Source of the DNA: Actinomycetota bacterium
Lineage (GTDB): Bacteria > Actinomycetota > Acidimicrobiia > Acidimicrobiales > Ilumatobacteraceae
Assembly: GCA_026393695.1 (NCBI GenBank)
Contig: JAPKZR010000076.1
Location: forward strand, 1 to 32,452
Length of the DNA: 32,452 nt
Direction: 5' to 3'
Shown here: positions 1 through 7,595 of the stretch, piece by piece
Layout of the letters: the number at the start of each line of letters is the position of its first letter
Numbering within the stretch: the stretch's first letter is position 1
The notes under the pieces: generated by a model
What the model saw: the letters and a program-made list of their open reading frames with translations, nothing else
What the model was told of the DNA's origin: nothing
The model's database searches: none
Made by a program: the position numbers and the translations under genes

Positions 1-522
1 ATAGGCGCCACCGATCCACGCACCAACGGCAAACGGCACGGCCTCACTGCGGCCGCCGCGGATGCAGCCGTGAATCACCAACAACAAACCAATGGTTGCC
101 ACGACCTCGCTGAGCCATAGTGCTCCTGACGATCGTGCATGCGTTGAGAAATGAATTGCAGGTAACTCGAACATCAGGCTGGCAATCACGCTCCCGATGC
201 ACCCTCCAATGGTCTGAGCGATCGTGTACAGCGCTGCATCGCGGGTGCTGATCGAGCCGAACAACCGGTCAACCAAGGTGACCACCGGATTGAAGTGGGC
301 GCCCGACACAGCGCCAAACATCAGGATCAACCCAATGAGAGCGCCAGCGGTGCCGGCAGCATTCTCGAACAGCTGCAAGCCGACGTCGTTTGGCGAGAGG
401 CGAGTGGCCATGATGCCCGACCCCACCACAGCGATGATGAGCAGCGCCGTGCCCAGGGCCTCGGCGGCAAGACGGCGGGTAATCGAGATCGCCGGGGCAG
501 GGGATTGGGCTGGTTGTTTCAT
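1..522 (-). CDS. MIP/aquaporin-family channel, partial (C-terminus beyond window edge)
   Basis: This is a membrane channel of the major intrinsic protein family, probably passing water, glycerol or As(OH)3. It is not in the ORF track because it runs off the left edge, but 174 codons read open on the minus strand from ATG 522. A hydrophobic helix (about residues 19-38) is followed by SGAHFNPVV at about 73-81, the first half-helix pore motif with NPV in place of the usual NPA. More hydrophobic helices follow at about 97-118 and 135-152. The second NPA repeat would lie outside the window. The start overlaps the stop of the upstream ArsR-ArsC gene by 4 bp (ATGA), so the two are translationally coupled. 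Linkage to arsR/arsC resembles rhizobial AqpS, where a channel replaces an arsenite pump; the arsenic role here is inferred from this context. Glycerol or water facilitation alone remains possible. Confidence 0.85.
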   Translation of the reverse strand, partial: MKQPAQSPAPAISITRRLAAEALGTALLIIAVVGSGIMATRLSPNDVGLQLFENAAGTAGALIGLILMFGAVSGAHFNPVVTLVDRLFGSISTRDAALYTIAQTIGGCIGSVIASLMFELPAIHFSTHARSSGALWLSEVVATIGLLLVIHGCIRGGRSEAVPFAVGAWIGGAY

Positions 523-1184
523 TGTGGGTCTTTCAAGGAGTTGAGGAGAAGGTTGATTCGCTCCCGTAGCTCTGCAGCAGTGGTGTCGAAGGCGCGTTTG
601 GTGCCGATGGCCACTGGGTCGGTGATCGACCAATGCAGCCAATCGGGGTGTGCAGTGATCTCTTCGTGCGCCTGATCGCAAACGGTGATCACCAGCGAGG
701 GCAGTTTGCCGAGGCCGTGCAGCGAGCGAGGTGTGGTTGTTGAGATGTCGAGGCCGCAGCGCTGAGCCGCGGCGACTGCCCCAGGATGCACACGCTCTGC
801 CGGGTGCGTGCCAGCGGACTCGGCAGGTGCGTCGGTCATTGATCGCCAAAGCGCCGCCGCCAACTGGCTGCGCGCCGAGTTTCGGGTGCATACGAACAGT
901 GCCTTGCTGCGCGTGATGGTGCGCTTGGGACCAAGATCAACCAGCGCTCCTTGAGTGAGCCGCACATACTTGCGGCGCGCGTCGCCACTCGAGGCTGAGC
1001 GAGTGATCATCCCCACGTCTTCAAGCACAGCAAGGTGATGGGCCAAGAGGTTCGACTCGATGCCGAGCAACGTGCGTAGTTCTGTGGGCGTGCGATCAGA
1101 CAACGAGAGCTCGTCGACGATCGCCAACCGGCCGGCATCGCCGAGCGCAGCGTGTCTGTTTGCACGACGTTCTCCGGAAGCCAC
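519..1184 (-). CDS. ArsR-family repressor fused to LMW-phosphatase-type arsenate reductase
   Basis: This 221-aa protein joins a winged-helix ArsR domain (residues 1 to about 88) to an ArsC-like low-molecular-weight tyrosine phosphatase domain (about 92-215). The catalytic loop VCTRNSARS gives C-x5-R (Cys99, Arg105), and HWSITDP carries the family's Asp-Pro. TVCDQAH keeps one further Cys (169), but the third Cys of the thioredoxin-linked pI258 type is missing, so reduction through mycothiol/mycoredoxin is more likely (inference). The ArsR half contains no cysteine, so the classic CxC arsenite site is absent. I start at GTG 1184 rather than the tracked TTG 1205: a TTGACT/TATGCT promoter ends 6 nt before this GTG, so the mRNA is probably leaderless, and the TTG lies inside the promoter spacer. 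It heads an operon with the MIP channel and is likely self-repressed through the palindrome in that spacer. It could instead be a phosphatase sensing something other than arsenic. Confidence 0.9.
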   Translation of the reverse strand: MASGERRANRHAALGDAGRLAIVDELSLSDRTPTELRTLLGIESNLLAHHLAVLEDVGMITRSASSGDARRKYVRLTQGALVDLGPKRTITRSKALFVCTRNSARSQLAAALWRSMTDAPAESAGTHPAERVHPGAVAAAQRCGLDISTTTPRSLHGLGKLPSLVITVCDQAHEEITAHPDWLHWSITDPVAIGTKRAFDTTAAELRERINLLLNSLKDPQ

Positions 1185-1190
1185 ATGGGC

Positions 1191-1225
1191 AGCATAATCA
1201 CTCAATAATTATTGAGTCAATAATT
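1191..1225 (-). promoter_or_regulatory. arsR-arsC promoter with palindromic operator in the spacer
   Basis: On the minus strand, -35 TTGACT (1220-1215), an 18-nt spacer and -10 TATGCT (1196-1191) lie 6 nt before GTG 1184. The spacer holds an 18-bp perfect palindrome, ACTCAATAATTATTGAGT (1200-1217), and the 9-mer TCAATAATT occurs at 1202-1210 and again at 1217-1225. An operator wedged between -35 and -10 fits steric repression by the ArsR domain. The AT-rich block stands out from its GC-rich surroundings. Confidence 0.8.
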
Positions 1226-2661: not shown

Positions 2662-4002
2662 CTACTTGACGATGATCGCCGTGACCATTCCGAACATGCC
2701 CTGGGGGCCTTCGGCGTGGGTCAGGATGTGGCAGTGCCACGCCCAGACGCCTGGGTCCGTGAAGTGGTACACCACCGTGTAGCGCTCGCCGGGAGCAACG
2801 AGGATGGTGTCCTCGGCCATTGGCTCCTTGAGCGGCACGCCGTCTTTAGCGATGATCCAGCCGACCGGTTGATGCATGTGCATCGGGTGAGCCGTGAGGC
2901 CCTCGTTGAAGTAGTTCACGAGCATCGTGTCGCCCACGTTGGCCGAGTACGGCTCGGTAGCGGGGAAGCTCTTGCCGTTCAGCGTGAGTCCGATGGTGCC
3001 AGCGTCGTTGAGCATCATGTTCACGGTCTGGTCAATCTTGGTGATTCCCTTGTCGGCCAGCGAAGCGGGCAACGGCATGTCGCCGATGATGAAGGCTCCG
3101 GCCAAACCGTTAGGGATCTGGGTCTGCGCATCGTGGTGCGAGTGGTACATGCCCACCGCAGGCTCAAGCGCCGTGAACTCATAGATAAACGACTTGCCTG
3201 GCTCCACTGGGTCCTGTGTGAACGGATCGACGCCGTCCATCGCGTTGGGCACCCGAATGCCGTGGAAGTGGATATCGGTTGACTCTGGCAGTTCGTTCTT
3301 GAGAACAATCTTGACCTTGTCGCCAACCTCGACCCGAATCGACGGGCCAGGCACCATGCCGTTATAGGTCCACGCCTTCACGATCTTGCCGGGCTCTACT
3401 TCCCAGTCGACGATCGAGGTGGTCAGGTCGAACTCTTTGGTGCCATCGGCGAGGATCTTTGGCTCAAGAGCAGAGCCGCCGAATGTGCTCTTGGGTTCGT
3501 TCACGAACCGCAATGCTCGTTCGGTCATCGCCTTGTCCATCTCCTGATACGACATCGTTGTCGGGGGAGCCGGAGTGGTGGTCGCTGAGCCGGCGGCTGA
3601 TACATGGATCATGCCCTTCATCCCTGACGCTGCGTGTCCAGGGATGTTGCACTGGAAAGCAATTTCACCCTCGGTGGCGTTCTTCAGGGTGATGGTCTGG
3701 GCCTCGCCGGGCTGCAGGTCTCTCGTGGTGAGGTTGCGCTCGGCGATGCTGAAGTTGTGTGGGATATTTCCGGAGTTCGTGACATGAATGGTCACATCTC
3801 CGGGCGGCACGTCGAGCATGTTGGGCGTCATCGCAAACTCGGTGAGGTTCACATCGACAGCGGTGGTTGTGACTGCAGCGGTTACCGAGCCGTTTGAGCC
3901 CGAGTCGCCCGAGCGTGAAATCGCAAAACCGGCAAAGGCAAGCGCAACCACCCCGAGTCCAAATCCTCCGACAGCCAGCACGGATCTTTCGTCATTGTTC
4001 AT
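2662..4002 (-). CDS. Membrane-anchored cupredoxin-multicopper oxidase fusion
   Basis: This 446-aa exported copper oxidase has an N-terminal hydrophobic anchor (about residues 9-30, after MNNDERS). A plastocyanin-like cupredoxin follows at about 48-135, with type 1 copper ligands His82 and CNIPGHAASGM (Cys118, His123, Met128). A Thr/Pro linker leads to two multicopper-oxidase domains (about 185-446) with a complete set of ligand motifs: HFHG (245-248), HSH (287-289), HPMHMH (372-377) and HCHILTH (423-429) with a downstream Met. It should therefore bind a trinuclear centre and a second type 1 site, the cupredoxin probably passing electrons to or from it. The substrate is unknown: phenols, metals or a small redox protein are all possible, and a nitrite-reductase-like role is not excluded. 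I take ATG 4002; ATG 4011 would add three residues. Two DevR-box-like sites lie upstream, and a hairpin terminator follows. Confidence 0.9.
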   Translation of the reverse strand: MNNDERSVLAVGGFGLGVVALAFAGFAISRSGDSGSNGSVTAAVTTTAVDVNLTEFAMTPNMLDVPPGDVTIHVTNSGNIPHNFSIAERNLTTRDLQPGEAQTITLKNATEGEIAFQCNIPGHAASGMKGMIHVSAAGSATTTPAPPTTMSYQEMDKAMTERALRFVNEPKSTFGGSALEPKILADGTKEFDLTTSIVDWEVEPGKIVKAWTYNGMVPGPSIRVEVGDKVKIVLKNELPESTDIHFHGIRVPNAMDGVDPFTQDPVEPGKSFIYEFTALEPAVGMYHSHHDAQTQIPNGLAGAFIIGDMPLPASLADKGITKIDQTVNMMLNDAGTIGLTLNGKSFPATEPYSANVGDTMLVNYFNEGLTAHPMHMHQPVGWIIAKDGVPLKEPMAEDTILVAPGERYTVVYHFTDPGVWAWHCHILTHAEGPQGMFGMVTAIIVK

Positions 4003-4035
4003 GGCCGTCATTGTGATTGGGCCACGCGCGACCTC

Positions 4036-5868: not shown

Positions 5869-6144
5869 TTAGCGCTTTGCTGCTGCTTTAGCGAGGCGCT
5901 TGGCGGTCTTGCCAGCTGGCGCAAGAGATCGGTGATCAAGGTCGCCGTGTTCGGCGCCATTGGCGAACAACACCCGGTAGCGCTGCCAGTTGAACCCGTT
6001 TGCCAAAATCACGCGGCCAGCGGTGCCCACGGGGACGCCGTCGAGTTCGATGGTTGAGGTCACACGATCGCCCATGCTCAACTCGAGCTGGTCTGCGTGT
6101 GGTTTGGCGAGGGCGTGGGGTTTCCAGAACGTCACAGGTTCCAT
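5869..6144 (-). CDS. Small conserved-looking protein of unknown function
   Basis: This is a 91-aa protein I do not recognise by name. The central part (about 25-75), from MGDRVTS through GVPVGTAGRVILANGF to YRVLFANGAEHGDL, looks like a small SH3/KOW-like beta barrel: the GDRV opening and a GxxGxV turn are typical of such domains. The tail is a Lys/Ala-rich basic stretch (KTAKRLAKAAAKR) that could contact nucleic acid. I start at ATG 6144, because the 18 residues of the longer tracked ORF (to 6198) would run into the tig promoter and start. It is divergent from tig and convergent with the response regulator. No function is proposed. Confidence 0.65.
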   Translation of the reverse strand: MEPVTFWKPHALAKPHADQLELSMGDRVTSTIELDGVPVGTAGRVILANGFNWQRYRVLFANGAEHGDLDHRSLAPAGKTAKRLAKAAAKR

Positions 6145-6185
6145 TCTGCCCGATGAGAGGGAGTCGTTGCATCTTTCTGCGCCGA

Positions 6186-6191
6186 TACACT
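6186..6191 (+). promoter_or_regulatory. -10 hexamer of tig
   Basis: TACACT ends 9 nt before GTG 6201 and no SD lies between them, so the transcript has at most a few leader bases. No convincing -35 is seen. Confidence 0.5.
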
Positions 6192-6200
6192 CGGCCACCT

Positions 6201-7595
6201 GTGAAAAGCACTCTCGAATCCCTAGAGGGAAACAAGGTCAAGCTGTCGGTCGCCGTTGACGAAACCGAGTTTGATCGCGACATTGACTCAGCATTCAAAA
6301 AGATCGCTCGTGAGGTGCGGTTGCCAGGCTTTCGAGCCGGCAAAGCTCCCCGCAAAGTGCTCGAGGCCCGCATCGGCATTGCAGCCGCTCGCGAGCAAGC
6401 GCTTCGCGATGGTGTGCCGAACTATTTGGCGCAGGCCGTGCGAGAGCACGATGTCGACCTCATCGCTACGCCCGAGATCGAAATCACCGGCGGCGAAGAG
6501 AGTGGTCCTATCTCGTTTGACGCTACGTGTGAGATCCGCCCCGAGGTCACCGTGCCCGGCTACGGCGGCTTGCGTGTCGAAGTTCCGGCTATCACCTGCA
6601 CCGACGCCGACATCGACGCCGAGGTAAAGAAAGAACTCAGTCGTCAAGGCACCCTCGCCGATGTCGAGCGGGCCATCGCCCTTGGCGATCAGGTCACCCT
6701 CAACCTGCAGGGTCTGCGCAACGGCGAGCCAGTTGTTGGCCTCAACACCGAAGACTGGCTCTACGAAGTCGGCAAGGGTTGGGTCGCTGGCGGCTTCGAC
6801 GATCAGCTCGTCGGCGCCAAGGTCGGCGACGACCTCACCTTCTCGCTCATCCCTAACGGCACCGAAGAACCAGCCGATTTCGAAGTCACCATCAACAAGG
6901 TGCAAGAACTCATCCTGCCCGAGTTCAACGACGAGTGGGTCGACTCAAACGTCGCCGAATACGACACCGTTGCTGGCTGGCGCAGTGCGCTGCACGACCG
7001 ACTCAGCGAGGCACACCTCAATCAGGCTCGTAGCCAGATCGTCGATCGCGCCACATCGGCTCTGGCCGAGCTGGTCGACATCGAGCCACCAGAAGCAATG
7101 GTTCAAGGCGACCTGCAGGCTCGTGTGCAAAACACGGTGCAGCAGTTCCAGAGCCAAGGTATTGCGCTCGATCAGTGGCTGTCAGCCACCGGCCAAGACG
7201 CCAACAGCTTTGTCGAGGGGTTGCGCATCCAGTCGCTCAAGGCCGTGAAGGTCGATCTCGCCCTGCGTGCCGTCGCCGTTGCCGAAGACCTCTCGGTCGA
7301 CGACGACGACTTCGAGCGCGAATTCGAGCGCATTGGCCTGCAGGTGCGCCAGCGTCCAGCGCAGGTGCGTAAGGCCTACGAGAAGAACGATGCAATGAGC
7401 GAACTCGGTGCTCAAATTCGCAAGACCAAGGCGCTCGACTGGTTGCTGCATCATGTAGAGATCGTCGACCCTTCGGGTCAGGTCATCGATAACGATGTCA
7501 TTCTCGGCCATGATCATGAGCACGATCATGACCACGACCATGATCACGACCACGATGGTCATGACCACGACGATCACGACGATCACGATCACTAG
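6201..7595 (+). CDS. tig: Trigger factor with His/Asp-rich C-terminal tail
   Basis: This is the ribosome-associated chaperone and peptidyl-prolyl isomerase that meets nascent chains at the exit tunnel (464 aa). The N-terminal ribosome-binding domain carries the signature GFRAGKAP (43-50). The FKBP-like PPIase domain lies at about 155-240 (GDQVTLNL through DFEVTINK), and the helical chaperone domain follows to about 430. GTG 6201 is chosen because residues before it are unlike the family; the tracked ORF from 6000 is an overlong frame. The last 28 residues alternate His with Asp, Glu and Gly (13 His), a likely metal-binding tail absent from E. coli trigger factor but reminiscent of SlyD. It might bind Ni, Zn or Cu, or merely be a charged tail. 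clpP begins 11 bp downstream with its SD touching the tig stop, so the two are probably cotranscribed. Confidence 0.97.

Follow-up and report, generated by a model that had tools for sequence, protein, structure and literature searches.

A cysteine-free ArsR half fused to an ArsC domain without its resolving cysteine: a candidate arsenate-sensing repressor of Actinomycetota

Arsenate is often the form in which arsenic enters the cell and, to our knowledge, almost all ArsR proteins studied so far sense arsenite. A gene on contig JAPKZR010000076.1, from an Actinomycetota bacterium of the Ilumatobacteraceae, raises the question of what such a repressor responds to when its DNA-binding half carries no cysteine and a reductase domain is attached to it. 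The gene, arsRC, lies in the window, meaning the whole stretch of 32,452 nucleotides that was analysed. The answer favoured here, with somewhat better than even confidence, is that the arsRC protein acts as an autoregulatory repressor, with its fused ArsC domain serving to sense arsenate. The gene and its two halves are as follows.

519 to 1184, minus strand: arsRC, an ArsR-type repressor joined to ArsC (LMW phosphatase fold), from the ORF, Pfam, an AF2 model and fold matches
942 to 1172, minus strand: cysteine-free winged-helix (ArsR) half, from the alignment and the AF2 model
543 to 905, minus strand: ArsC-like domain with P-loop CTRNSARSQ and WSxxDP kept and the third redox cysteine absent, from Pfam, fold matches and the alignment

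The initial annotation had described an ArsR-ArsC fusion, and the fusion is real: HTH_5 (22.4 bits, cut-off 22) and LMWPc (44.5 bits, cut-off 23.2) both match one protein encoded by a single minus-strand ORF. Counted from GTG, the protein has 221 amino acids; by the ORF reading the stop is TGA at 519-521 and the likely start GTG at 1182-1184, with an alternative in-frame TTG at 1205, inside the operator. NCBIfam HTH_metalloreg scored 35.2 on the protein, below its cut-off of 55; the ArsR-type winged-helix domain is recognised by HTH_5 and by the helix order and wing of the AF2 model. In this monomer model (pLDDT 95.4, pTM 0.80), the ArsR C-terminal helix is only five residues long, and the ArsC domain comes immediately after it. 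The best fold matches are ArsC enzymes, among them 1lk0, in which pI258 C89L is trapped as the disulfide intermediate (TM 0.84).

Fusions of this kind have been noted earlier (PMC6205960; PMC6514093). In PMC6514093, the actinobacterial ones form clusters C4 and C7, including the Rhodococcus erythropolis PR4 cluster RER_RS00775-00825; they share the domain order of the window protein, with which the PR4 fusion has about 50% identity. The main text places them by ArsC phylogeny alone, and no discussion of cysteine loss, operon types, operator or sensing was found in that text. The arsRC gene is not an oddity of one window, an explanation rejected by the class- and phylum-level matches. Among 395 Acidimicrobiia genomes, 121 gave a match, about 55 of these being full-length fusions, and the phylum-level search found matches at E <= 1e-20 in 54 of 397 genomes; related fusions occur across Acidimicrobiia and in Actinomycetes, with full-length examples also on actinomycete plasmids. 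The fused ArsC domains group together in a single clade, separate from stand-alone ArsC (SH-aLRT 95.7), and the window protein, with both domains in one chain, belongs with the actinobacterial ArsR-ArsC fusions. Its nearest relatives are 89% identical and have the gene order arsRC-aqp-arsC.

Three codons mark the positions on which the question turns.

888 to 890, minus strand: P-loop Cys99 (106 from TTG), Cys in 57/57 relatives
678 to 680, minus strand: second cysteine, Cys169 (176 from TTG), equivalent to pI258 Cys82, Cys in 57/57 relatives
657 to 659, minus strand: Ile176 (183 from TTG), at the place of the pI258 resolving Cys89, never Cys in the clade

In GTG numbering, the window protein has cysteines at 99, 143 and 169; the ArsC half contains all three and the ArsR half is free of cysteine, just as had been noticed from the sequence at the outset. 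The missing third redox cysteine was likewise borne out, Ile176 aligning without gaps with Cys89 of pI258 ArsC. An alignment of 57 close arsRC-type members extends both observations. The ArsR half is cysteine-free in 46 of the 57, the others having one or two scattered cysteines, and the ArsR halves of the aligned members show no conserved cysteine and no CxC; the cysteine pair or triad of a canonical As(III)-sensing ArsR is absent from the window protein. In the ArsC half, the P-loop cysteine and the second cysteine are present in all 57 and the resolving cysteine in none, its position being taken by Leu (32) or Ile (9) in 41/57 and by other residues in the rest, while the position of pI258 Cys15 is always Ala. 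The pattern recurs in phylum-level and plasmid members, and random cysteine loss is rejected because it is fixed across the 57. The fused domain is not decayed, since the catalytic P-loop and Asp-Pro are kept: Cys, Asn, Ser, Ala and Ser of the loop are found in 57/57, Arg in 56/57 and the catalytic Asp in 57/57, and the linker from wing to P-loop measures 23-27 residues in every member. Judged as a thioredoxin-dependent ArsC, the protein has the CX5R P-loop and catalytic Asp and lacks the third of the three redox cysteines, and TIGR02691 scored 38.7 bits against a cut-off of 174.3.

More distant ArsR-LMW phosphatase fusions (L011 and L069-L078 except L073), which were left out of the 57-member clade, keep the third cysteine in 10/10 cases. 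They have a longer linker, often a cysteine after the wing, and an upstream site resembling ATCAA-N6-TTGAT; a glyoxalase-like neighbour is frequent and, where seen, replaces the arsenic genes. At L073 (1993-2643), a CxC-bearing ArsR is fused to a three-Cys ArsC and followed by an aquaporin, in contrast to the Cys-less fusions. Since both this fusion and the distant group retain the third cysteine, its loss is specific to the arsRC clade. One member of that clade, L056 (2007-3347), is a triple fusion in a single ORF, comprising ArsR, a two-Cys ArsC and a three-Cys ArsC.

The missing third cysteine had initially been taken to indicate mycothiol chemistry, and this part of the interpretation fared poorly. 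The P-loop, CT-x-NSARSQ, resembles the thioredoxin-type loop of pI258; in PMC6514093, the loop residues of the mycothiol enzyme Cg_ArsC2 are C8, V9, N11, G12 and G13, and in a comparison with mycothiol-dependent ArsC (Cg_ArsC1/2) this set was not matched by the window loop, CTRNSARSQ. The source genome has an MshC-like gene scoring 416 bits against a cut-off of 485.1. Given the P-loop type and this score, the cysteine loss does not stand as proof of mycothiol chemistry; lost turnover in a sensor explains it at least as well, and an arsenate sensor has no need of mycothiol chemistry.

Three further features lie immediately ahead of the gene.

1200 to 1217, no strand assigned: operator palindrome ACTCAA-TAATTA-TTGAGT, with arms conserved upstream of relatives
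1215 to 1220, minus strand: -35 box TTGACT, overlapping the operator, from a promoter scan
1191 to 1196, minus strand: -10 box TATGCT, 6 nt ahead of the GTG, from a promoter scan

The scan returned TTGACT-18-TATGCT with 9/12 matches, where shuffled sequences averaged 0.0. At 1200-1217 stands ACTCAATAATTATTGAGT, a perfect 18-bp palindrome, as first described. Contrary to that description, it is not confined to the space between the two hexamers: it shares the final 3 bases of the -35 box and takes up 15 bases of the 18-base spacer. What relatives conserve is the arms ACTCAA...TTGAGT only, the perfect middle being local to the window. With up to two mismatches, ACTCAA-N6-TTGAGT occurs upstream of 51 of the 57 members, compared with 0.4% among shuffled sequences and 0.1% among control stretches; a chance palindrome is rejected on these conserved arms, far above shuffles. 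The source genome assembly contains one exact site, at arsRC, and plasmid-borne members from actinomycetes carry a similar site beside the start codon. The transcript is probably leaderless, as predicted from the 6 nt that separate the -10 box from the GTG.

Downstream of arsRC, the contig breaks off inside a second gene.

1 to 522, minus strand: aquaporin (MIP), partial at the contig end, Pfam MIP 70.9 bits

Its ATG (522-520) overlaps the arsRC stop as ATGA, and the gene runs off the contig; in near relatives (L005/L006) the order continues as arsRC-aqp-arsC. No LMWPc domain besides that of arsRC was found in the source assembly, which is 89% complete and whose contig stops inside the aquaporin gene. 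The neighbours of the 57 loci were found by searches with annotated plasmid genes. A separate ArsC lies just downstream of the fusion in 42 loci (aquaporin and ArsC in 25, ArsC in 16, ArsC with gapdh-arsJ in 1) and, where readable through, has the three-Cys MGCGDxCP form. Eleven loci have gapdh-arsJ without a separate ArsC, and a twelfth has gapdh at the contig end; the ArsJ-associated GAPDH family scores 543.7 bits and the ArsJ family 562.9, each above its curated cut-off. The last three of the 57 end early, the window and L021 with an aquaporin at the contig end and one with 55 bases of flank; apart from that one, every locus (56/57) has arsenic-type neighbours. Among ten GAPDH-ArsJ genomes, ACR3 is present in eight, in some of them close downstream, and neither ACR3 nor ArsB was found in the other two. 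Arsenite handling is therefore not absent there, and the argument for As(V) sensing that such genomes contain no arsenite at all is weakened by the ACR3 in 8/10.

Phosphate-transport genes also appear beside the fusion. Rhodococcus and Mycolicibacterium relatives are divergent to pstSCAB, and pstS directly follows the fusion in two genomes; at L089, L090, L109 and L115, the fusions adjoining pstSCAB or pstS are Cys-less, an arrangement that suggests arsenic-controlled phosphate uptake. Elsewhere in the window, 2662-4011 encodes a multicopper-oxidase-like protein whose front part is cupredoxin-like, and the ORF at 6000-7595 resembles trigger factor and has a long His/Asp-rich C-terminal tail, for which metal binding is possible.

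An ArsR half without a usable thiol site, a complete ArsC beside most fusions and GAPDH-ArsJ elsewhere lead us to read the fused ArsC domain as an arsenate sensor; the genes under arsRC control, judged from sequence, suggest the same role for the enzyme half. Sensing through the reductase domain had been raised initially as an appealing possibility. It has gained support from the cysteine loss in both halves, the separate ArsC, the GAPDH-ArsJ operons and the conserved operator, even as the accompanying mycothiol inference weakened. From the observed sequence, cysteine pattern, operator conservation and operon content, we infer the following ligand, switching chemistry and DNA release. The winged-helix half would bind ACTCAA-N6-TTGAGT, thereby covering the -35 box and spacer, and shut off the probably leaderless operon, arsRC-aqp in the window and arsRC-aqp-arsC in near relatives. 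Arsenate would enter the P-loop of the fused domain, and either oxyanion binding or the first steps of the reductase reaction, halted at a Cys99-Cys169 disulfide for want of a third cysteine to pass it on, would alter the ArsC domain so that the repressor releases its DNA. The separate three-Cys ArsC would then reduce arsenate and the aquaporin let arsenite out, with GAPDH-ArsJ taking the place of ArsC and aquaporin in other operons. Switching probably occurs by one of these two routes. More tentatively, and with rather less than even confidence, the domain may be a one-turnover arsenate sensor that acts through the trapped Cys99-Cys169 disulfide and runs ArsC/aquaporin, GAPDH-ArsJ and phosphate-transporter modules across Actinomycetota. 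The C10-C82 intermediate of B. subtilis ArsC was prepared from a C15A C89S mutant (PMC6193951), a residue pattern that is natural in the arsRC clade.

The alternative that survives best is a bifunctional protein, in which the ArsC domain functions as a reductase with the help of mycothiol/mycoredoxin or another thiol, the fusion merely coupling repressor and enzyme. Because the catalytic residues and two cysteines are intact, reductase activity with an outside thiol is conceivable, and an MshC-like gene is present; together with these intact residues, the common occurrence of ACR3 and the fact that the fused domain is the sole LMWPc domain found in five GAPDH-ArsJ genomes, some with ACR3, keep an enzyme-repressor in contention, and published models treat Leptospirillum ArsRC as both ArsR and ArsC (PMC4443643). 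We nevertheless regard it as unlikely, since a separate complete ArsC accompanies the fusion in 42 operons, the third cysteine is lost in 57/57, the P-loop is of the thioredoxin rather than the mycothiol type, and the MshC-like score falls below its cut-off. Less likely still is a transfer of the As(III) site from the ArsR half into the ArsC pocket, with arsenite held by Cys99 and Cys169: both cysteines are invariant, pI258 ArsC has been crystallised with arsenite (1lju) and many operons also export arsenite (aquaporin, ACR3), but GAPDH-ArsJ operons deal with arsenate, neither ACR3 nor ArsB occurs in two of the ten genomes that have them, and the pst neighbours point to an oxyanion. It is very improbable that the repressor answers oxidation (peroxide or disulfide stress) or phosphate instead of arsenic; peroxide is able to produce the C10-C82 disulfide in mutant ArsC, ArsC binds sulfate (PMC6193951) and pst genes adjoin some relatives, yet arsenic-type neighbours stand at 56/57 loci. 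That the ArsC domain is a mere dimerisation scaffold without a signal role, replacing the shortened ArsR C-terminal helix (five residues as predicted), is scarcely credible when its active-site residues are strictly conserved.

The arsenate sensor proposed here can be set beside known systems. With canonical As(III)-responsive ArsR, the arsRC protein shares the winged-helix fold, an operator over the promoter and a regulator gene placed first in the operon, but it has no CxC or other conserved cysteine and almost no C-terminal helix; relative to such repressors, the sensor role has probably moved to the ArsC domain. With the thioredoxin-dependent ArsC of S. aureus pI258 and B. subtilis, the fused domain shares fold, P-loop, second cysteine and WxxxDP, whereas it lacks the third cysteine, has Ala at P-loop position Cys15 and is joined to a repressor. 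The Sinorhizobium arsR-aqpS-arsC operon is controlled by a stand-alone ArsR. Its pathway (PMC6205960) combines aquaporin and ArsC in one operon, as in arsRC relatives. An arsenate input has been proposed before: TtSmtB, a Thermus ArsR, is reported to prefer arsenate (PMC5658604), and the ArsR of the V. cholerae var operon controls GAPDH and ArsJ, with arsenate sensing probable and unproven (PMC9601151); neither is described as fused to ArsC. While the fusions themselves were already known, no description of the cysteine pattern, the operon set or the operator was found in the open-access literature, and a functional study elsewhere is conceivable.

The arsenate sensor of the V. cholerae GAPDH-ArsJ operon has been stated to be an open question (PMC9601151). 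With a sensor built from a fused ArsC, direct detection of arsenate by the cell would have an explanation. Should the fused domain indeed play this part, a detoxifying enzyme has been turned into the signal receiver of its own pathway, and the family would offer a natural arsenate-specific switch for biosensors.
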